This document shows positions 28,221 through 38,020 of a stretch of 64,000 nt of DNA, in pieces. Origin of the DNA: Malaciobacter mytili LMG 24559 (lineage in GTDB: Bacteria > Campylobacterota > Campylobacteria > Campylobacterales > Arcobacteraceae); assembly GCF_003346775.1 (NCBI RefSeq), contig NZ_CP031219.1:2170001-2234000 (forward strand), read 5' to 3'. A program made the translations under genes and the position numbers. The notes beneath the pieces are model-generated. The model saw only the letters and a program-made list of their open reading frames with translations, was not told the DNA's origin and ran no database searches. The stretch's first letter is position 1. The number at the start of each line of letters is the position of its first letter.

Positions 28221-28547
28221 ATGAGCGTTTTAATTATTGGAGGAGATAAGATCTCTCAAATATCAACAATGTTAGAAGATTTAGGTGCAAAAACAATCAA
28301 TCATTGGGATGCAAGAAAAAAATCATCTGCTCCCAAGAAAAAAATACCACAAGATACAGATTGCATTATAATGCTTACTTCTTTTTTAAACCATAATACT
28401 ATGCTTAAGTATAAAAGTGAAGCAAAAAGAAAAGAGATACCTTTTATTTGTGCTAAAAGAAGTGTAAATTGTGTTTATGATGAATATGTAAAAGTTATGG
28501 GTATCAAAAATTGCAATGACTGCTATGCAAATTGTGGAAATAAATAA
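28221..28547 (+). CDS. DUF2325 family protein
   Basis: A 108-aa DUF2325 protein: N-terminal VLIIGGDK, the central CIIMLTSFLNHN, and PFICAKRSVN. DUF2325 proteins are small Rossmann-like proteins of unknown function. A cysteine-rich tail, CNDCYANCGN, might bind a metal. Preceded by AAGGGG, it follows the microprotein and overlaps the next gene by one base (TAATG), and is presumably iron-regulated from the upstream Fur box. Confidence 0.8.
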   Translation: MSVLIIGGDKISQISTMLEDLGAKTINHWDARKKSSAPKKKIPQDTDCIIMLTSFLNHNTMLKYKSEAKRKEIPFICAKRSVNCVYDEYVKVMGIKNCNDCYANCGNK

Positions 28548-29328: not shown

Positions 29329-29826
29329 ATGGCAACAGCACTTTTTTTTGCTAGTAGCACAGGAAATACTGAAGAAGTTGCAAATAAAATTGCAAAATCT
29401 TTAGGGGATATTAAAATATATAATATATGTGATAGCGATGTAAATGATATATTAAACTATGATAAGATAATCCTAGGTACTTCAACTTGGGGAGAAGGTG
29501 AACTTCAAGATGATTGGGATGAGATTTGGGAAGAGTTTTGCTCACTAGATTTTTCAAATAAAACAGTAGCACTATTTGGACTAGGGGATCAAGATGGTTA
29601 TGGTGATGAGTTTTGTGATGCTTTAGGAATAATGTATGAACAAGTTAAAAAAGCAAATGCAAATATTATAGGATTTACTTCAACTGATGGTTATGAGTAT
29701 GAATATTCTAAAGCACAAATTGGTGATGAATTTGCAGGTTTAGTTATAGATGAAGATAACCAAGATGACCTAACTGATGAAAGAATTGCTTCTTGGATTG
29801 AGAAAATAAAAAACAAGATTCTATAA
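29329..29826 (+). CDS. fldA: Flavodoxin (first of three)
   Basis: A 165-aa long-chain flavodoxin, an FMN-binding electron carrier that replaces ferredoxin when iron is scarce. The phosphate loop SSTGNT (residues 9-14), the Trp loop TSTWGEGELQDDW and the GLGDQDGYGDEF loop are all canonical. It is the last gene of the microprotein-DUF2325 unit and is followed by a hairpin. The third paralogue is closer to this one than the second is. Confidence 0.92.
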   Translation: MATALFFASSTGNTEEVANKIAKSLGDIKIYNICDSDVNDILNYDKIILGTSTWGEGELQDDWDEIWEEFCSLDFSNKTVALFGLGDQDGYGDEFCDALGIMYEQVKKANANIIGFTSTDGYEYEYSKAQIGDEFAGLVIDEDNQDDLTDERIASWIEKIKNKIL

Positions 29827-29852
29827 AAAGTCAAGATTTACTCTTGACTTTC
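29827..29852 (+). terminator. Hairpin after flavodoxin 1
   Basis: AAAGTCAAGA (29827-29836) pairs with TCTTGACTTT (29842-29851), 10 bp, loop TTTAC. Only a short T run follows, so termination may be partial. Confidence 0.55.
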
Positions 29853-29950
29853 TTAAATAAAACTTATTATACTATCTAAACAAAAATTTATACCTTATTT
29901 AAAAATAATTGTTTTACTATATTAATAAAGATTAAAGCAAAGGAGTTACT

Positions 29951-30460
29951 ATGACTTGTGCAATATTTTATGCTAGTAAGAGTGGACACGCAAAAGAGGT
30001 AGCAAATAAAATATCTTTTGCTTTAGATGAAATTAGAGTTTTTGATATAGCTGTTACAGGAAGTGAATATATCAATGACTACAAGCATCTAGTTTTTGGT
30101 ATTTCAACTTGGAATCATGGTCAAATGCAACAGGACTGGCAAAAGATTTGGAAAGATTTTTCACATATTGATTTTAAAGGTAAAAAAGTTGCAATTTTTG
30201 GTCTAGGAGATCAAAAAAAATACCCTGATGAATTTGCAGATGCAATGAGATATGTTTATGATGATTTAATATCTCATGGAGCAACTGTTGTTGGTTTTAC
30301 TTCAACTAAAGGATATGAATTTAACTCTTCAAAAGCAGTGATTGATGGTAAATTTGTAGGTTTAGTTTTAGATGAAGATAACCAAAGTCATTTAACAGAT
30401 GAAAGAATAAAAAAGTGGGCAGAAGAGATAAAAAGTGAAATCTTATATGCAACTTCTTAA
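29951..30460 (+). CDS. Flavodoxin-like protein with altered FMN phosphate loop
   Basis: A 169-aa flavodoxin paralogue, but the FMN phosphate loop is SKSGHA instead of S-x-TGNT, and the Trp loop is TWNHGQMQQDW instead of TWGEGELQDDW, with acidic residues replaced by His and Gln. The GLGDQKKYPDEF loop is retained. It may bind FMN weakly, bind another ligand, or prefer different partners. It has its own ribosome site (AAAGGAG) and a 124-base upstream gap in which I see no Fur palindrome, so it is likely regulated apart from its neighbours. Confidence 0.82.
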   Translation: MTCAIFYASKSGHAKEVANKISFALDEIRVFDIAVTGSEYINDYKHLVFGISTWNHGQMQQDWQKIWKDFSHIDFKGKKVAIFGLGDQKKYPDEFADAMRYVYDDLISHGATVVGFTSTKGYEFNSSKAVIDGKFVGLVLDEDNQSHLTDERIKKWAEEIKSEILYATS

Positions 30461-30552
30461 AAATAAATTAACAAAATAGATACTTAATTTAAATAAGACA
30501 TTTTTTATCCTATTTATATAAAATTATAAAAAATTTTATATAAAGGATTAAA

Positions 30553-31056
30553 ATGTCAAGTGCCATATTCTATGCAAGTAGTACAGGAAATACTGAAGAA
30601 ATAGCAAATAAAATTATAGAAAAATTAGGAAATATTGATTCATATAATATAAGTAATAATCAAGAAGATGTAAAAAAAATTGCTACTTATGATAAACTAA
30701 TCTTAGCCACTTCAACATGGGGTGATGGGGATTTACAAGATGATTGGGATGAATCTTGGGATAATTTTAAAGAAATTGATTTTTCAAATAAAATTGTAGC
30801 ACTAGTTGGATTAGGAGATCAAGAAAGCTATGATGATACTTTTGTAAATTCACTAGGAACAATGTATGAACAAGTTATTTCTCAAGGTGGGAAAGTTATT
30901 GGTTTTACTTCTAAAGAAGGTTATGAGTTTGAAGAATCAACGGCACTAAAAGATAACCAATTTGTAGGTTTAGTTATAGATGAAGATAACCAAAGTGATT
31001 TAACTGATGAAAGAATAGATAATTGGATAGAGAAAATTAAAGAGGAAATCTTATAA
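30553..31056 (+). CDS. Flavodoxin (third of three)
   Basis: A 167-aa flavodoxin with intact FMN motifs: SSTGNT at residues 9-14, STWGDGDLQDDW, and GLGDQESYDDTF. It is similar to the first paralogue along its whole length, including the C-terminal VGLVIDEDNQSDLTDERI segment, so the tandem set arose by duplication. It converges with the fur gene, with a short perfect hairpin (31060-31079) between them. Confidence 0.9.
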   Translation: MSSAIFYASSTGNTEEIANKIIEKLGNIDSYNISNNQEDVKKIATYDKLILATSTWGDGDLQDDWDESWDNFKEIDFSNKIVALVGLGDQESYDDTFVNSLGTMYEQVISQGGKVIGFTSKEGYEFEESTALKDNQFVGLVIDEDNQSDLTDERIDNWIEKIKEEIL

Positions 31057-31608: not shown

Positions 31609-31818
31609 TTATTTGTTTTTCAGTTTTTTACTCTTTTTTTCAGGTTGGTAAAGCATATGATGCCATAAAGCAAAACCACAAAATGCGGCACCGGCAACTA
31701 TGTGAGTTTTTTTAGCAATACTATTTTTCATAAACATAGAAGTTACAACCGTTGCTCCTAAAGTAGCAGTCATTCCTATTTTTGCAACTTCTTTTTTTAT
31801 TTCATTATCGACTTTCAT
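31609..31818 (-). CDS. Small membrane protein next to the ferrosome-like cluster
   Basis: A 69-aa protein: a charged N-terminus, one hydrophobic Gly/Ala/Thr-rich segment (IGMTATLGATVVTSMFM), a second hydrophobic segment (IVAGAAFCGFALWHHMLY) and a lysine-rich tail. Glycine-zipper style helices recall the other small proteins of the neighbouring cluster. It overlaps the preceding 40-aa ORF by 14 bases, and both lie downstream of two Fur boxes. No family is recognised; a component or accessory of the iron organelle is inferred from context. Confidence 0.65.
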   Translation of the reverse strand: MKVDNEIKKEVAKIGMTATLGATVVTSMFMKNSIAKKTHIVAGAAFCGFALWHHMLYQPEKKSKKLKNK

Positions 31819-32014: not shown

Positions 32015-34120
32015 TTAAGCCTTTACTCCTTTTATAGAGTTTAAAAGTAAACCAATTGTTGTTCCATTATGTAAAACTGCAGTAACAATAGGAGAAAAAG
32101 CTCCAAAAGTTGCACCTGCTAAAATTGCTGAATTTACCCCAACTGTTGCTTTAAAGTTTGTATTTATAAGTCTCATAGTTTTATTTGCTAACTCTTTTGC
32201 TTCAACAACAGCTTGTATATCATCTTTTAATAAACTAACATCTGCTGTTGCTTTAGCAATATCAGCCCCTTTACTCATAGAAATACCAACACTAGCACTA
32301 ATTAAGGCAGGTGCATCATTTATCCCATCACCAACAAAAGCAACTTTTCTACCTTCATCCATCATTTTTTTAACAATTGCTGCTTTATCAGTAGGAAGTA
32401 ATTCAGAAAAAACCTCATCAATACCTAATTCTTCAGCAACCATTTGGGCTTTTTTATCAACATCTCCTGTTAGCATAACTAGATGTTTTACACCCAATTG
32501 TCTTAATCTTAATAAAGATTCTTTTGCATTATCTCTAATCTTATCACTTAAAGCAATTGTTCCTAATAGTTTCCCATTAAATCCAATATAAAGTAGAGTT
32601 TTACCCTCATCTAAACTTTTATTTATTTTCTCTTTATGTGAAGAAAAATCTATTTTTTCATCATCCTCTAGAAAATGTCTACTTCCAATTATAACTGATT
32701 TACCATCAACTTCTGTTTTTACACCATGAGCAACAATAAATTCTACTTCTTCATGGTGCATATGTACAAAGCCCCTTTGTTTAGCAGCTTTAACAACCGC
32801 TTCTGCAACTGGATGAAAGTAGTGTTCTTCTGTACTTGCTGTTAGATTTAAAACCTCTTCTTCTGTCCATTGTTCATCAAAAGATTGAACTTCTATTACT
32901 TCTAAATCACCTTTAGTTAAAGTTCCTGTTTTATCAAAAATAAAAGTATCCACATTTGATAACGATTCAATTGATTTTGCACCTTTTATCATAATTCCAT
33001 TATGACCTGCTTTTGAAATAGTTGATTTAAAAGCAACTGGAGTAGCAAGTTTTAAAGCACAAGAATAATCAGCTTGTAAAATAGAAGCTACCCTTTCAAA
33101 ATCTTTAGTTATCAAATAAGAAAAACCTGCTAAACCTAAAGTTACAGGAACTAATTTATCGGCTAATTTTGTTGCTTTTAGTTGTACTGAAGATTTTTCA
33201 TTTAATGAACTTTCAATATAGTGTTTAATTCTTTGTGTGGCAGTATTTGCCCCCACATGTTCAGCCCAGATTTTTAACCTACCCTCTTCTAAAACAGTTC
33301 CAGAAATAACCCTATCTCCCCTTTGTTTTTTTATAGGTTCAGCTTCACCTGTCATAGATACTTGATTTACACTTGCATCTCCAAATACAATATGTCCATC
33401 AACAGGGATTGTACTACCAGCACTAACTACTACTATATCTCCAACATCAATCTCTTCTGTTTTAACTAAAACTTCAACTTTTTTACCATCTTGAAGCTTT
33501 TCAATCCATGCCTCTTTTACATTTGGTTTAGCTAACTCTTTTAATAAATCATCACTTTTATGAACAGTAGTCTCTTCAATATACTCACCAAGAGCTAGCA
33601 TTGTATTTGTTGAATTTGCTGCTAAATAATCTTTTCTATAAACAGAAATACCAACGGCTGCACTTTCTAAAACCTTTGAAGTTAAACCTTCATTAAAAAG
33701 TTCTTTTGTTCCTTCAATTAATAAAGGAGTTGCAGCTGTTGTAGTAAGTAAAGCTTTAGCTAAATTATTAGAAATAAACCTTTCAGCAACTAAAGCACCA
33801 CCTGCTCTTACAACTCCTTCTAAAGAAGGCTTTTCATTTTTTATACAACTAACACAAACAGCATTATCTTCACAATTTGTTGAAAGAAGATCTTCTAAAG
33901 TAAGAGTTTTTAAACTCTCTTCAATAGTTTTTTTAATATCAATATTTTCAATATTAAAAATAATACTATATGCTTTTTTATTTACACGAACACTATTGAC
34001 ACCTTGTATATTCTCAAGATATGCTTTTAAAATATTTTCATCAATAAACTCTTCTTTTAAAAGTTCAAATTTATATCTTAATCTTGTTAAGGTTTCATGT
34101 ACTTTTATAAATTTATTCAT
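32015..34120 (-). CDS. P1B-type ATPase, ferrosome FezB/P1B-6-like
   Basis: A 701-aa heavy-metal P-type ATPase. The N-terminal 75 residues form an HMA-like fold without the CxxC metal site (LTRLRYKFELL). Then come membrane helices, the actuator loop SMTGEAEP, the phosphorylation site DKTGTLTKG, the HP locus (EEHYFHPVAEA) and GDGINDAPAL. The intramembrane CPC motif is replaced by YSCALKLATP, a mark I associate with the iron-organelle P1B-6 group. It is the last gene of a six-gene operon with an HMA2 protein, a ferritin-like protein and small membrane proteins, and would pump iron into the organelle lumen. Copper or zinc export is less likely. Confidence 0.8.
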   Translation of the reverse strand: MNKFIKVHETLTRLRYKFELLKEEFIDENILKAYLENIQGVNSVRVNKKAYSIIFNIENIDIKKTIEESLKTLTLEDLLSTNCEDNAVCVSCIKNEKPSLEGVVRAGGALVAERFISNNLAKALLTTTAATPLLIEGTKELFNEGLTSKVLESAAVGISVYRKDYLAANSTNTMLALGEYIEETTVHKSDDLLKELAKPNVKEAWIEKLQDGKKVEVLVKTEEIDVGDIVVVSAGSTIPVDGHIVFGDASVNQVSMTGEAEPIKKQRGDRVISGTVLEEGRLKIWAEHVGANTATQRIKHYIESSLNEKSSVQLKATKLADKLVPVTLGLAGFSYLITKDFERVASILQADYSCALKLATPVAFKSTISKAGHNGIMIKGAKSIESLSNVDTFIFDKTGTLTKGDLEVIEVQSFDEQWTEEEVLNLTASTEEHYFHPVAEAVVKAAKQRGFVHMHHEEVEFIVAHGVKTEVDGKSVIIGSRHFLEDDEKIDFSSHKEKINKSLDEGKTLLYIGFNGKLLGTIALSDKIRDNAKESLLRLRQLGVKHLVMLTGDVDKKAQMVAEELGIDEVFSELLPTDKAAIVKKMMDEGRKVAFVGDGINDAPALISASVGISMSKGADIAKATADVSLLKDDIQAVVEAKELANKTMRLINTNFKATVGVNSAILAGATFGAFSPIVTAVLHNGTTIGLLLNSIKGVKA

Positions 34121-34123
34121 AAA

Positions 34124-34453
34124 CTACTCTTGATTTGCTTCCATAGCAGCTTTAGCATCTTCCATTCTCTCTTTTAACTCTTCCATTCCAGCTTGAAAAA
34201 GTTCAGTACCTTTTGATACAGCTTTCATTATATTTTCTTGCGCACCTTTATTTGTAAGAAGATAAGTAACAGCTGCACCAATTAATGCACCTTTTATAAA
34301 ATCACCACTATTAAATCCACTATTTTGCCCATTTTGCATATTTTGTACATTTGTTGGTGATTGATTTATATAAGGATTTTGATTTAAAGTATTATTTTGA
34401 ATAGCTCTACTATTTTCAATATTTATATCATACATATTTGTATTCTTATTCAT
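34124..34453 (-). CDS. Small YtxH-like membrane protein of the ferrosome-like operon
   Basis: A 109-aa protein with an Asn/Gln-rich N-terminal 45 residues (repeated NMQNGQNSG type), one glycine-rich membrane helix (GDFIKGALIGAAVTYLLT) and an amphipathic Glu/Lys helix at the C-terminus (FQAGMEELKERMEDAKAAME). The helix-plus-coiled-coil layout resembles YtxH/gas-vesicle-like proteins and the small membrane proteins of ferrosome loci. It starts 8 bases inside the previous gene and ends 3 bases before the ATPase, so it belongs to the same transcript. Confidence 0.7.
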   Translation of the reverse strand: MNKNTNMYDINIENSRAIQNNTLNQNPYINQSPTNVQNMQNGQNSGFNSGDFIKGALIGAAVTYLLTNKGAQENIMKAVSKGTELFQAGMEELKERMEDAKAAMEANQE

Positions 34454-34823
34454 AATCTTCCTCTTTTAAAGTTTTAATTTCATCTTCTTCATAAGCCAAA
34501 GTTTCATATTTTTCATTTAATTTATCATCAATAACTTCAACAGCATAAATTCCAGCCATCCCAATACTTAAAGCAGTCATAGCTTTTAAAAAGCCACCTT
34601 GTTGCCCTAAATAATTTGCAGTAGCAATTGCAGTTCCTGTTGCAATCGCACCTTGTGTTGTTTTTTTAACTGTATCTTTTATAGCTTCATTTGAAGAAAT
34701 TTTAGCCTCTTTTGCTTTTTTATAATTAATTGTTCCTGAAACTACCGCACTTGCTATTGCACCACTTATTACATGTCCTAAGACATTTCTTGGTGTTCCT
34801 GTATCAATTACGCCTTTTTGCAT
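34446..34823 (-). CDS. MamC-like two-helix membrane protein
   Basis: A 125-aa protein with two glycine/alanine-rich membrane helices (about 14-32 and 76-94) separated by a charged loop, and an acidic tail. The loop and second helix (AKEAKISSNEAIKDTVKKTT then GAIATGTAIATANYLG) resemble, from memory, magnetosome MamC (Mms13), whose loop between two helices binds magnetite. Helix-loop-helix order and spacing fit. It overlaps its neighbours by 16 and 8 bases in the operon. The resemblance was not computed; a generic glycine-zipper protein is the alternative. Confidence 0.65.
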   Translation of the reverse strand: MQKGVIDTGTPRNVLGHVISGAIASAVVSGTINYKKAKEAKISSNEAIKDTVKKTTQGAIATGTAIATANYLGQQGGFLKAMTALSIGMAGIYAVEVIDDKLNEKYETLAYEEDEIKTLKEEDYE

Positions 34824-35095
34824 TCTTCATCTTCCTTTATCTCTTCGATTTTTTCAATTACATCTTCTTTTATTTCTTTTAAAGACTCTTTTTTCTCTTT
34901 AATGCACTCTTTTGTTGCATTTATAGTATCTTTAACATCACTTGCTAAATCTTTACTTTTTTCTAATTTAGATGAAGCAAAATCTTTTGATTTACAAAAC
35001 AACTCTTTTGATTTTTCTTTTAAAGTTTTACTTTTAGTAAAAGCAATAACTGCCCCTGCTCCAATTGCCAATCCAGCTATAAATGGTAATGCCAT
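34808..35095 (-). CDS. Small membrane and coiled-coil protein of the ferrosome-like operon
   Basis: A 95-aa protein: an N-terminal glycine-rich membrane helix (LPFIAGLAIGAGAVIAFT) then a long amphipathic Lys/Glu helix with repeating KSKD-like units and a cysteine pair region (LFCKSKD, KECIKEKK). The layout fits a membrane-shaping or scaffold protein, like other short Fez proteins. It overlaps the MamC-like gene by 16 bases and starts 3 bases after the ferritin-like gene. No family was identified. Confidence 0.7.
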   Translation of the reverse strand: MALPFIAGLAIGAGAVIAFTKSKTLKEKSKELFCKSKDFASSKLEKSKDLASDVKDTINATKECIKEKKESLKEIKEDVIEKIEEIKEDEECKKA

Positions 35096-35098
35096 AAT

Positions 35099-35770
35099 TT
35101 ACTCCTTTTCTTGAGAATAACTATTTAAAAAAGCAACTAATGCTGCACCAAGTCCTGCACCACTTAACATAGAGATATTTAATTTTGATAAAAGTAAAGA
35201 GATTTTATCTTGATTAATATTCCCATTTGCAATATCTTCTAAAAGCATTTGATACTCATTTGCTTTTCCCATCATCTCTTCAATACTATTTAAGCTAGTT
35301 GAATTACTTACGCCATTATAATGGTTTAGCACAGCTTTTCTAAAAGCTGGAAGATGGTTGTTATATGAAGCTGCTTGAAGCTTGAAAAGCATATCTTTAA
35401 TATCCTGCTGTTTTGTATTTGCTATTAAATTATCATACATTGCAATATTATTAATCTCACTTGCAACACCCAATTCACAACATTCTATATAAGTATTTGG
35501 TACTTTTATTTTTTCTGCCCAATCATTAATTGGAACTTCAACATTATATTTTTGTAAAAGGGGAATTAATGCACTATAATGTATTGCTTCAGCCTCTTTT
35601 ATATTAATAAAAGGAGTTATTGCTCCAAATTTTTCTATTATTTTTGTATAAGTTTCATAAGCTTTAAATTCATCATAAACAGCAATTCTTAAAACTTGTG
35701 AAACAACAGGTTGTTCATTATTTAAATCAACTCTTTGAGAAAGTAAAATATTCTCATCTAAATTTACCAC
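35099..35770 (-). CDS. Ferritin-like (DUF2202-type) protein with C-terminal membrane anchor
   Basis: A 223-aa protein with a ferritin-like four-helix domain: YDEFKAYETY, EAEAIHYSAL (ExxH), ELGVASEINNIAMYD and a fourth helix with NNHLPAFRKAV, the layout of DUF2202. The Glu/His ligands for a di-iron site are mostly present, though the fourth-helix Glu is Asn. Unusually a glycine-rich membrane segment follows (SMLSGAGLGAALVAFLNS, about 198-215). In this operon it could oxidise or nucleate iron at the organelle membrane; that is inference. Its ATG overlaps the preceding HMA2 gene stop by one base. Confidence 0.7.
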   Translation of the reverse strand: MVNLDENILLSQRVDLNNEQPVVSQVLRIAVYDEFKAYETYTKIIEKFGAITPFINIKEAEAIHYSALIPLLQKYNVEVPINDWAEKIKVPNTYIECCELGVASEINNIAMYDNLIANTKQQDIKDMLFKLQAASYNNHLPAFRKAVLNHYNGVSNSTSLNSIEEMMGKANEYQMLLEDIANGNINQDKISLLLSKLNISMLSGAGLGAALVAFLNSYSQEKE

Positions 35771-36084
35771 TACATTACCTCCTTTGCAAGATTATTTATA
35801 ATTTCTGTAATCTCTTCTAAATTTCTTTTATTTATTAAATCTTCCCAAATTTGAGGTTTAAAAATAGTAGCATCATAAGTTATTGTAACAGAAGCAATAA
35901 TCTTATTTATCTTAATATCTTTTATTCCATTTATTTTCTTAGGTAAATTTTCAATATCCAAAATTGAAATATTTGAGCTTTCATTTTTTATTTTTGGATT
36001 TACTCTTACTCTTAATCTACCTGGAGTATGGGCAATTATTGAAAAATAACTAGCAATTTTAATAATATCTTCTGTTTTTATCAA
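35770..36084 (-). CDS. HMA2-type domain protein, first gene of the ferrosome-like operon
   Basis: A 104-aa protein with the HMA2 layout: HTPGRLRVRVNPKI, then a beta-alpha-beta fold (INGIKDIKINKIIASVTITYD) without a CxxC, so it is not a classical copper-binding HMA. Such proteins occur beside P1B-6 ATPases in ferrosome loci. The start is TTG at 36084, after AAAGGA and a T8 tract; no ATG lies near. A Fur-like site is upstream, so the whole operon is probably induced when iron is low. Confidence 0.75.
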   Translation of the reverse strand: MIKTEDIIKIASYFSIIAHTPGRLRVRVNPKIKNESSNISILDIENLPKKINGIKDIKINKIIASVTITYDATIFKPQIWEDLINKRNLEEITEIINNLAKEVM

Positions 36085-36184: not shown

Positions 36185-38020
36185 TTAATTATAACATACT
36201 TTATTTCTTCCACTTCTTTTTGCTTCATATAAAGCTTCATCTGCTCTTTTATATACAACTTCATACTTTTCATTTCTTTTACAAAAAGTTGCACCTAAAC
36301 TAATTGTTACATTTATTTTGTGATTTTCATATACAAAATTATAATCTTCCACAACTTGTTTTAATCTAGTAGCTATATTTATTATATTTTCATTACTATT
36401 ATCATCAACCAAAACAATAAACTCTTCTCCACCAAATCTTCCAATAATATCCTCTTTATGTAAAAAACTTTTAATTAATTTTGATAAATCTCTTAAAATA
36501 CAATCTCCAATATAATGTCCATAAGTATCATTGATTTTTTTAAAATAATCAATATCAAAAATAATTAAACAAAAATCTTTTACTTCTAACCAACAATTTA
36601 AAAGTGAAGTTATAGTATTTTTATTATAAATAGAAGTTAGCTCATCAATTGTTGCTTTTTGTTCTAAATGACAAAGCTTTTCATTGTAAGAGGAAATATC
36701 ATTCATACATATTAAATATTTTTTCATATCAAGTTTTTGAACATCAAAAATAAAATATTTATGATTATCATCCTGTACTTTTAATTTTGCAGGATTTTCA
36801 TAGGATTCATATTTTTTAGCAAAATTAACTAAATTTGCTTGTGTTTGATTATCTAATAGTGCAATATTTGTCATAAAATGATCTTTTGATTTAAAAATAT
36901 CCACAAATTTTTTATTTGTACTTTCTATATCTTTTCCATCAGTAATTAATATAATATTTTTTTGAGAATCTAAAACTGATTGTAAAAAATCTCTTTCTTT
37001 TTTTAACTCTTCATGTTGTTTATTATTAATAGAAATAAACATTTCATTAATTTTTTTTGAAAGATAACTAATCTCATCATCATAATCTATTTTAATTTTT
37101 AATTCTAAACTATTACTTTTAGATACTTTTTTAATAATATTTGTAATATTTTTAATTCTTTTTGCAAAAAGTTTATCAATAAAAAAGTAAATGCACATAA
37201 TTAATAATATAAAAGTAGTTATAAAAATGTAAAATAAAAACTCATTATTTTTAGATATTTGTATAAAAAAATCCCTATTAATTTTCATACTTATAAAAAA
37301 AGAGCTATTATCAAACTCATCAAATAATTCAATAAAAGAAAAAAGATTTTTTTCATCTACTCTATTTATATCATAATTTATCAAACTATTTTTTATTTTT
37401 AATTCATTTTTATTTTTTAAAGAGTATGAAGGTAAAAATGAAATATAACTATGAGTAATTTTTGTAAGATTGGATAAAAAAGAAGAATCCAAGGTTCTTC
37501 CTATAAAAATATAGCCTAAAAGCTTATTTGCTTTTTTTACTTCTTCAATTGTAAAAAGAACTTTTTCATAATCAAGGGTAATAAAATGTATCTCCTCTTT
37601 ATTTTTTAAATACTTATTTAAATTTTTTGATTTAAAAAAGTTTTTTATCTCATTTGGAGTAGAGATAAATTCATCTGAATTTATATCATATACATCACCA
37701 GAAACAAACTGTTTATTTTTATCAAATAGTATAAAATGAGTATATTTATCTTTGATAAAATATCTTTTTTTATCCTTTTTAATGTGTTCTTCTAAACTAT
37801 TAATGATTTTTTCATTTGAAGAGTACTCATAGGCTATATTATTTAATAAATCAACTTTTGAATATAAAGCTTCAAAAAAAATCTTGATATTCTTTTCCAC
37901 TTGAATATTTTCAAAACTTAAAGTTTTTTTTTCACTATCTTTTAAAATTGCAAAGATACATATTACTAAAAAAACTAAAATAGAACTAAAAAATAATGAT
38001 ATTTTAGTGGTAATATTCAT
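36185..38020 (-). CDS. Membrane diguanylate cyclase with sensor domain
   Basis: A 611-aa protein: membrane helix (about 7-25), a periplasmic sensor domain of about 230 residues (Cache-like), a second membrane helix (about 258-281), a HAMP-like helix, a PAS-like domain (about 340-430) and a C-terminal GGDEF domain with GGEEF in GRFGGEEFIVL, so c-di-GMP synthesis is expected. No EAL domain. It lies divergent to feoA, with a perfect Fur palindrome 57 bases upstream of its ATG, so c-di-GMP output may respond to iron. Confidence 0.88.
   Translation of the reverse strand: MNITTKISLFFSSILVFLVICIFAILKDSEKKTLSFENIQVEKNIKIFFEALYSKVDLLNNIAYEYSSNEKIINSLEEHIKKDKKRYFIKDKYTHFILFDKNKQFVSGDVYDINSDEFISTPNEIKNFFKSKNLNKYLKNKEEIHFITLDYEKVLFTIEEVKKANKLLGYIFIGRTLDSSFLSNLTKITHSYISFLPSYSLKNKNELKIKNSLINYDINRVDEKNLFSFIELFDEFDNSSFFISMKINRDFFIQISKNNEFLFYIFITTFILLIMCIYFFIDKLFAKRIKNITNIIKKVSKSNSLELKIKIDYDDEISYLSKKINEMFISINNKQHEELKKERDFLQSVLDSQKNIILITDGKDIESTNKKFVDIFKSKDHFMTNIALLDNQTQANLVNFAKKYESYENPAKLKVQDDNHKYFIFDVQKLDMKKYLICMNDISSYNEKLCHLEQKATIDELTSIYNKNTITSLLNCWLEVKDFCLIIFDIDYFKKINDTYGHYIGDCILRDLSKLIKSFLHKEDIIGRFGGEEFIVLVDDNSNENIINIATRLKQVVEDYNFVYENHKINVTISLGATFCKRNEKYEVVYKRADEALYEAKRSGRNKVCYN

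Follow-up and report, generated by a model that had tools for sequence, protein, structure and literature searches.

Results and Discussion

Gene content of the locus

The window (the whole stretch of 64,000 nucleotides from Malaciobacter mytili LMG 24559 that was analyzed) carries on its minus strand an operon with the gene order HMA_2, DUF2202, 95-aa protein, MamC-like protein (the fourth gene), YtxH-like protein and FezB-like ATPase; a DUF4405/FezC-like ORF comes after a further ~200 bases. The operon is compact, with adjacent genes either overlapping or having a few bases between them. MamC is a magnetosome membrane protein by which magnetic bacteria control the size and shape of their magnetite crystals, FezB is an ATPase of the P1B-6 subclass, and FezC is a DUF4405-like cytochrome. 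The genes, and the parts of the MamC-like protein considered below, are as follows.

35770..36084, minus strand: HMA_2 domain protein, 104 aa (PF19991, E=6.9e-9)
35099..35770, minus strand: DUF2202 ferritin-like protein, 223 aa (PF09968, 24.5 bits against a cut-off of 22)
34808..35095, minus strand: small protein, 95 aa, with a Gly/Ala-rich start and then a Lys/Glu-rich helix (conserved in this slot)
34446-34823, minus strand: MamC-like protein, 125 aa (NCBIfam MamC model, reciprocal profiles and hhalign, fixed operon slot)
34722..34790, minus strand: its first hydrophobic segment, residues 12-34 (hydropathy; helix 11-39 in a low-confidence model)
34656..34724, minus strand: its charged loop, residues 34-56 (charge count; alignment of Glu46 and Asp50 with the acidic pair of MamC)
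34527..34598, minus strand: its last hydrophobic segment, residues 76-99 (hydropathy; helix 77-121 in a low-confidence model)
34124..34453, minus strand: YtxH-like protein, 109 aa (Pfam YtxH only at E=0.17; the counterpart on an Arcobacter plasmid is annotated YtxH)
32015..34120, minus strand: FezB-like heavy-metal P1B-type ATPase, 701 aa (TIGR01525, E=1.8e-148; weak N-terminal HMA_2)
31609..31818, minus strand: putative FezC-like small protein, 69 aa (Pfam DUF4405, E=0.013, below cut-off)

We infer the names FezB and FezC for these genes from their context and from one article (PMC11334425), where FezC is given as DUF4405-like. No family above cut-off was returned for the 95-aa protein by Pfam and NCBIfam. 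Ferrosome (fez) operons have reportedly been found in D. magneticus, R. palustris, S. putrefaciens and C. difficile; the window operon resembles them in having a P1B-type ATPase, an HMA_2 protein, several small membrane proteins and a putative FezC-like DUF4405 ORF (E=0.013, a value below the cut-off), and differs in having a DUF2202 ferritin-like gene. The initial annotation had placed the fourth gene within an iron-organelle operon, and the ATPase, HMA_2 protein and several small membrane proteins around it are indeed those of a ferrosome-type operon.

FeoAB and two Fur-family genes are located nearby in the window. Three tandem flavodoxin genes (29329-31056, plus strand; Flavodoxin_1, E 1.9e-27, 4.4e-20 and 4.6e-25) end immediately next to a Fur-family gene and the ferrosome-type operon, to which the trio may be linked through iron sparing or redox function. 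The operon is preceded at a distance of 100 bases, in the same orientation, by a gene for a GGDEF protein (diguanylate cyclase; 36185-38020, minus strand), and a GGDEF gene recurs upstream of the operon in loci L027, L035, L042, L045 and L046. A DUF2325 gene (28221-28547, plus strand) is found near the window operon, and another precedes the operon of the Arcobacter plasmid.

Features of the 125-aa protein

The MamC-like ORF starts with ATG and overlaps its neighbors on both sides (34808-35095 and 34124-34453). It is a genuine gene rather than a chance frame: intact relatives occupy the same operon slot in 40/40 of the Campylobacterota regions first read, and one is present in 63 of the family's 101 genomes. 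Two strings quoted from the protein in the initial annotation, ISSNEAIKDTVKKTT and GAIATG, occur in it letter for letter. Its description as two glycine-zipper helices flanking a charged loop holds in part: a charged stretch (residues 34-56, with 7 K/R and 3 D/E) does lie between a hydrophobic segment and helices rich in small residues, but a low-confidence model shows three helices, not two, and strict GxxxG motifs are not enriched (1 copy, equalled in 693/1000 shuffles). What is enriched is the looser small-xxx-small pattern, with 18 copies, a number equalled in 0/1000 shuffles. For this protein Pfam returned no family, and the PDB sequence searches gave no real match (best E 0.64 and 0.39). 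A scan of viral contigs found no relative, and promoter motifs were matched about as often as expected by chance (58 observed versus 50.6 expected).

Folded alone, the protein was modelled with helices at 11-39, 45-71 and 77-121 (mean pLDDT 60.5); a MamC (L062), modelled together with two relatives, gave predicted helices at 6-37, 43-69 and 74-121 (mean pLDDT 54.4). The comparison of predicted structures proposed in the initial annotation yields helix borders that agree across independent models, both of low confidence.

Homology to MamC

The NCBIfam MamC model (NF038051) matches the window protein with E=2.6e-5 and 24.4 bits, residues 13-95 falling on model positions 13-89 of 97. The equivalog cut-off of this model is 100 bits and the window protein does not reach it, whereas the MamCs from the 13 magnetotactic-type loci scanned, and a reference MamC sequence, score 116-150 bits; the reference sequence itself scores 146.7 bits. 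When the model was run across 150 related genomes, 63 matches were obtained at E<=0.01 (in 60 genomes) and none reached the cut-off. The 44 matches with E<1e-3 are all frames of 105-152 aa, and in 43 of them the FezB-like gene adjoins on the same contig; the exception is G088, where the two genes are on separate contigs, each <=270 bases from the contig start. In the range of E from 0.0016 to 0.01, 15 of the 19 matches are in ORFs of >=860 aa and were rejected as false positives; the match in genome G697 (locus L109), a 497-aa frame, was likewise dismissed. Among 14 control genomes none matches at E<=0.01 and 8 match at E<=1, and in the window's own genome the runner-up locus is at E 0.062.

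The reciprocal comparisons lead to the same gene. A profile of 41 operon proteins (profile A1 was built from 30 of the 41 sequences) matches the reference MamC along its length with 39.3 bits, and hhalign aligns the operon family with MamC at a probability of 96.3 over 93 columns with 29% identity. When the 1633 ORFs from 46 loci were ranked with a profile built on four MamCs (the reference sequence and three others), the top 42 were all operon proteins (E 1.4e-10 to 2.1e-5), derived from the 40 Campylobacterota regions, the Arcobacter plasmid and a Vibrio plasmid; the next ORF has E=0.094, and the four Azospirillum and Cereibacter relatives are missed.

A concern with proteins of this kind is that small, Gly/Ala-rich membrane hairpins of unrelated origin could resemble each other through composition and layout. 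The scores of shuffled sequences (2000 of each type) lend this concern some substance: the window protein scores 30.6 bits with the MamC profile, and its shuffles reach 13.2 bits when complete, 26.7 bits in 10-residue blocks and 29.3 bits in 5-residue blocks; the corresponding values for MamC with the operon profile are 39.3 (real), 12.2, 34.8 and 32.1 bits. Since the block shuffles fall only 1-4 bits short of the real score of the window protein, much of that score is explained by how its small and charged residues are arranged, and the homology therefore rests jointly on score, operon slot and intermediate sequences. ORFs of the size of AcrB also match the MamC model weakly. Nonetheless, full shuffles peak at only 13.2 bits, the MamC model selects the operon gene again and again (43/44 of the strong matches being beside a FezB-like gene), the remaining small Gly-rich proteins from the same loci stay at E>=0.094, the similarity is colinear over the 93 hhalign columns, and intermediates exist in Vibrio and Rhodospirillales. 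An origin of the resemblance without common descent is in our judgment quite improbable.

Overall, the profile search against MamC that the initial annotation had set as a check gave a match (E=2.6e-5; hhalign 96.3) rather than none. Its name for the protein needs to be read with care: there is colinear, full-length profile similarity and homology to MamC, but by the curated cut-off the protein is not a MamC; it is a homolog within the MamC family, encoded by a ferrosome-type operon. It shares with MamC/Mms13 (NF038051) its size, the succession of hydrophobic segments and a charged turn, a Glu/Asp pair four residues apart, an acidic tail and, in low-confidence models, the predicted borders of three helices, with an identity to the reference MamC of ~28% across 96 aligned columns (9/20 in the loop). 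It differs in its score (24.4 bits against 100), in a Val in place of the Gly of the Fe2+-affine pair, in a more basic loop, and in the location of its gene, which is in a ferrosome-type operon and not in a mamGFDC-type cluster. A further reading would be that the bacterium is, or once was, magnetotactic, the gene being a remnant of a magnetosome island. Beyond the MamC homology nothing points that way: the neighbors are ferrosome-type genes, and MamD and MamG are unmatched in the window's genome (the MamD model matches 2/2 MamC-bearing genomes; the MamG result is without a positive control). We consider such an origin extremely improbable.

Conservation of the operon slot among genomes

The order HMA_2, DUF2202, 95-aa, MamC-like, YtxH-like, FezB-like is kept in 39 of the 40 Campylobacterota regions fetched, and the remaining region (L025) agrees up to the contig end. 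In one region (L034, 7101-9200) the FezB-like ATPase is split into two ORFs of 308 and 324 aa, the remaining operon genes being intact. A second P1B-type ATPase (~703-775 aa), distinct from the FezB-like one, adjoins the operon in L016, L017, L018, L019, L024, L036, L037, L071, L072, L077, L079 and L087. Within the window's family the MamC-like and FezB-like profiles each match 63/101 genomes, and the two sets of genomes are identical; phylum-wide, the MamC-like profile matches 96/298.

The entire operon is also found on a 133-kb Arcobacter plasmid (CP129951; L061, 4037-8513), with a FezB-like ATPase 72.5% identical to that of the window; this presence on a plasmid suggests that the operon may move between strains. 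In operons of Azospirillum, Cereibacter and Vibrio plasmids the MamC-like gene again comes immediately before the YtxH-like and FezB-like genes, as it does in the window. The MamC model detects the Vibrio form (E=8.8e-9) and leaves the Azospirillum (L056) and Cereibacter (L058) forms undetected, as it does most of the alphaproteobacterial ferrosome forms tested. In gammaproteobacterial operons (L057, 5658-6383; L128, 3478-4272; L130, 5361-6080) the place of the DUF2202 and 95-aa genes is taken by one for a long, Pro/His-rich and partly YtxH-like protein.

Of 337 genomes from the class of Magnetospirillum, 3 match, one of them probably falsely; in its order 38/199 match, with 43 sequences of two kinds: MamC, in mam clusters wherever markers were found, and a ferrosome-type form. 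The MamC kind comprises 23 sequences, of which 20 were read in their gene context (all but those in G911, G820 and G878). At the ferrosome-type loci of this order (L070 and L090-L108) the gene series continues to the FezB-like gene in 18 of the 20 loci read, and the contigs of the other two (L097, L108) show none. Three genomes (G859, G884 and G828) each hold a mam-cluster MamC together with the relative in a ferrosome operon.

We have considered whether every FezB-like operon carries a MamC-like gene, and dropped the idea. Among 398 Pseudomonadota genomes there are at least 7 FezB-like loci, a lower bound obtained by scoring the two best candidates per genome; the MamC-like gene is present in 2 of these, absent from 4, and 1 locus is cut by a contig end, so that 4 of the 6 readable loci are without it.

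Phylogeny of the family

Two trees were calculated: the first with 86 sequences, from which fragments of <75 aa and identical sequences had been removed and in which the Arcobacteraceae-type sequences had been thinned, and the second with 71, from which ten long-branch or divergent loci had been removed in addition. In the first tree the MamCs form one side of a branch with support 94/99, and they group with one alphaproteobacterial ferrosome set and the gammaproteobacterial proteins (98/96); the Campylobacterota, with the exception of one long-branch sequence, and the other alphaproteobacterial set fall outside this group. The same grouping is retained in the second tree (97/99), with MamC alone at 97/97. 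Given the midpoint root and the small number of columns, it is plausible, but no more than that, for MamC to have descended from proteins of ferrosomes.

The charged loop

According to two studies (PMC6584501, PMC7604359), the loop of MamC acts on magnetite in vitro, its acidic pair Glu66/Asp70 (AMB-1 numbering) is credited with magnetite templating, and the Fe2+-affine residues of the MamC peptide are Asp and Gly. In the alignment this pair corresponds to Glu46 and Asp50 of the window protein, where the Fe2+-affine Asp is retained and the Gly two residues after it is replaced by Val52. Both positions are acidic in 32 of 42 close Arcobacteraceae-type sequences (a group that includes L032, from another family of the same order) and in 20 of 22 MamCs. 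Among the remaining ferrosome-type sequences both are acidic in 3/44 (1/19 of the other Campylobacterota, 2/20 of the alphaproteobacterial and 0/5 of the plasmid-borne ones, so that the Azospirillum, Cereibacter and Vibrio plasmid relatives differ in this respect from the window protein). The acidic pair was accordingly dropped as a general ferrosome feature, and the mineral-contacting role put forward in the initial annotation is unsupported in the form in which it was stated: the window protein has the pair, but its ferrosome-type relatives outside the close group mostly do not. The loop has a median net charge of +4 in one Campylobacterota group and +3.5 in the other, of +1 among the alphaproteobacterial and plasmid-borne ferrosome sequences, and of +0.5 in MamC; an idea based on loop charge is weak, as the alphaproteobacterial and plasmid value is close to that of MamC.

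These results can also be read in a way that dispenses with the mineral. The protein would still be a MamC homolog, acting purely in membrane assembly or as a partner of the FezB-like pump, with a loop that is turned to the cytosol or to protein partners and has no contact with the iron phase. The basic loop of both Campylobacterota groups, which by the positive-inside rule would be cytosolic, the lack of conservation of the acidic pair over the ferrosome-type group and the constant position beside the FezB-like gene are all consistent with it; retention of the pair in the close sequences and in most MamCs, and the in vitro action of the MamC loop on magnetite (PMC6584501 and PMC7604359), argue against it. 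We regard it as a serious contender, with somewhat less than an even chance of being correct.

Proposed role and significance

The reading that we prefer is that the gene product is a small, Gly/Ala/Ser-rich, helical membrane protein, a distant homolog of MamC and a constant member of the ferrosome-type operons of one large class, and that it acts in the membrane of the iron vesicle as proposed here; we hold this to be likely. We infer its membrane site, topology and target as follows. The protein would be co-produced with the YtxH-like proteins and the FezB-like pump; the small-residue faces of its helices would pack a membrane hairpin into the iron-vesicle membrane; and the charged turn might contact the iron filling, probably iron-phosphate-like rather than magnetite, or else partner proteins. 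The Fe-P granules of D. magneticus RS-1 are described in one article as polyphosphate-like, apparently mainly ferrous polyphosphate (PMC5134017), so that the natural target would be an iron-phosphate surface rather than magnetite.

Extending this reading to MamC, the magnetosome protein would be a branch of the ferrosome family adopted by magnetosomes. It could have been recruited, in Rhodospirillales-type bacteria, from an older family of ferrosome membrane proteins present in at least Campylobacterota, Alpha- and Gammaproteobacteria, its loop shifting from an amorphous iron-phosphate filling to magnetite; we put this forward tentatively, as a proposal with a little under an even chance.

The initial annotation had anticipated that the protein would link magnetosome and ferrosome components, and in this respect it is borne out, since the protein combines homology to MamC with a location in a ferrosome-type operon. 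No statement of a link between MamC and ferrosomes was found in the literature searched, a coverage that did not extend to the founding ferrosome papers (Grant 2022, Pi 2023). Although magnetosomes and ferrosomes are regarded as distinct organelles, a common family of membrane proteins connects them in concrete molecular terms and suggests that these two kinds of iron organelle have a building block in common. With both versions occurring within the same genomes of the Magnetospirillum order, the family is a candidate source of MamC, and the old question of the origin of magnetosome-specific proteins becomes open to simple tests.
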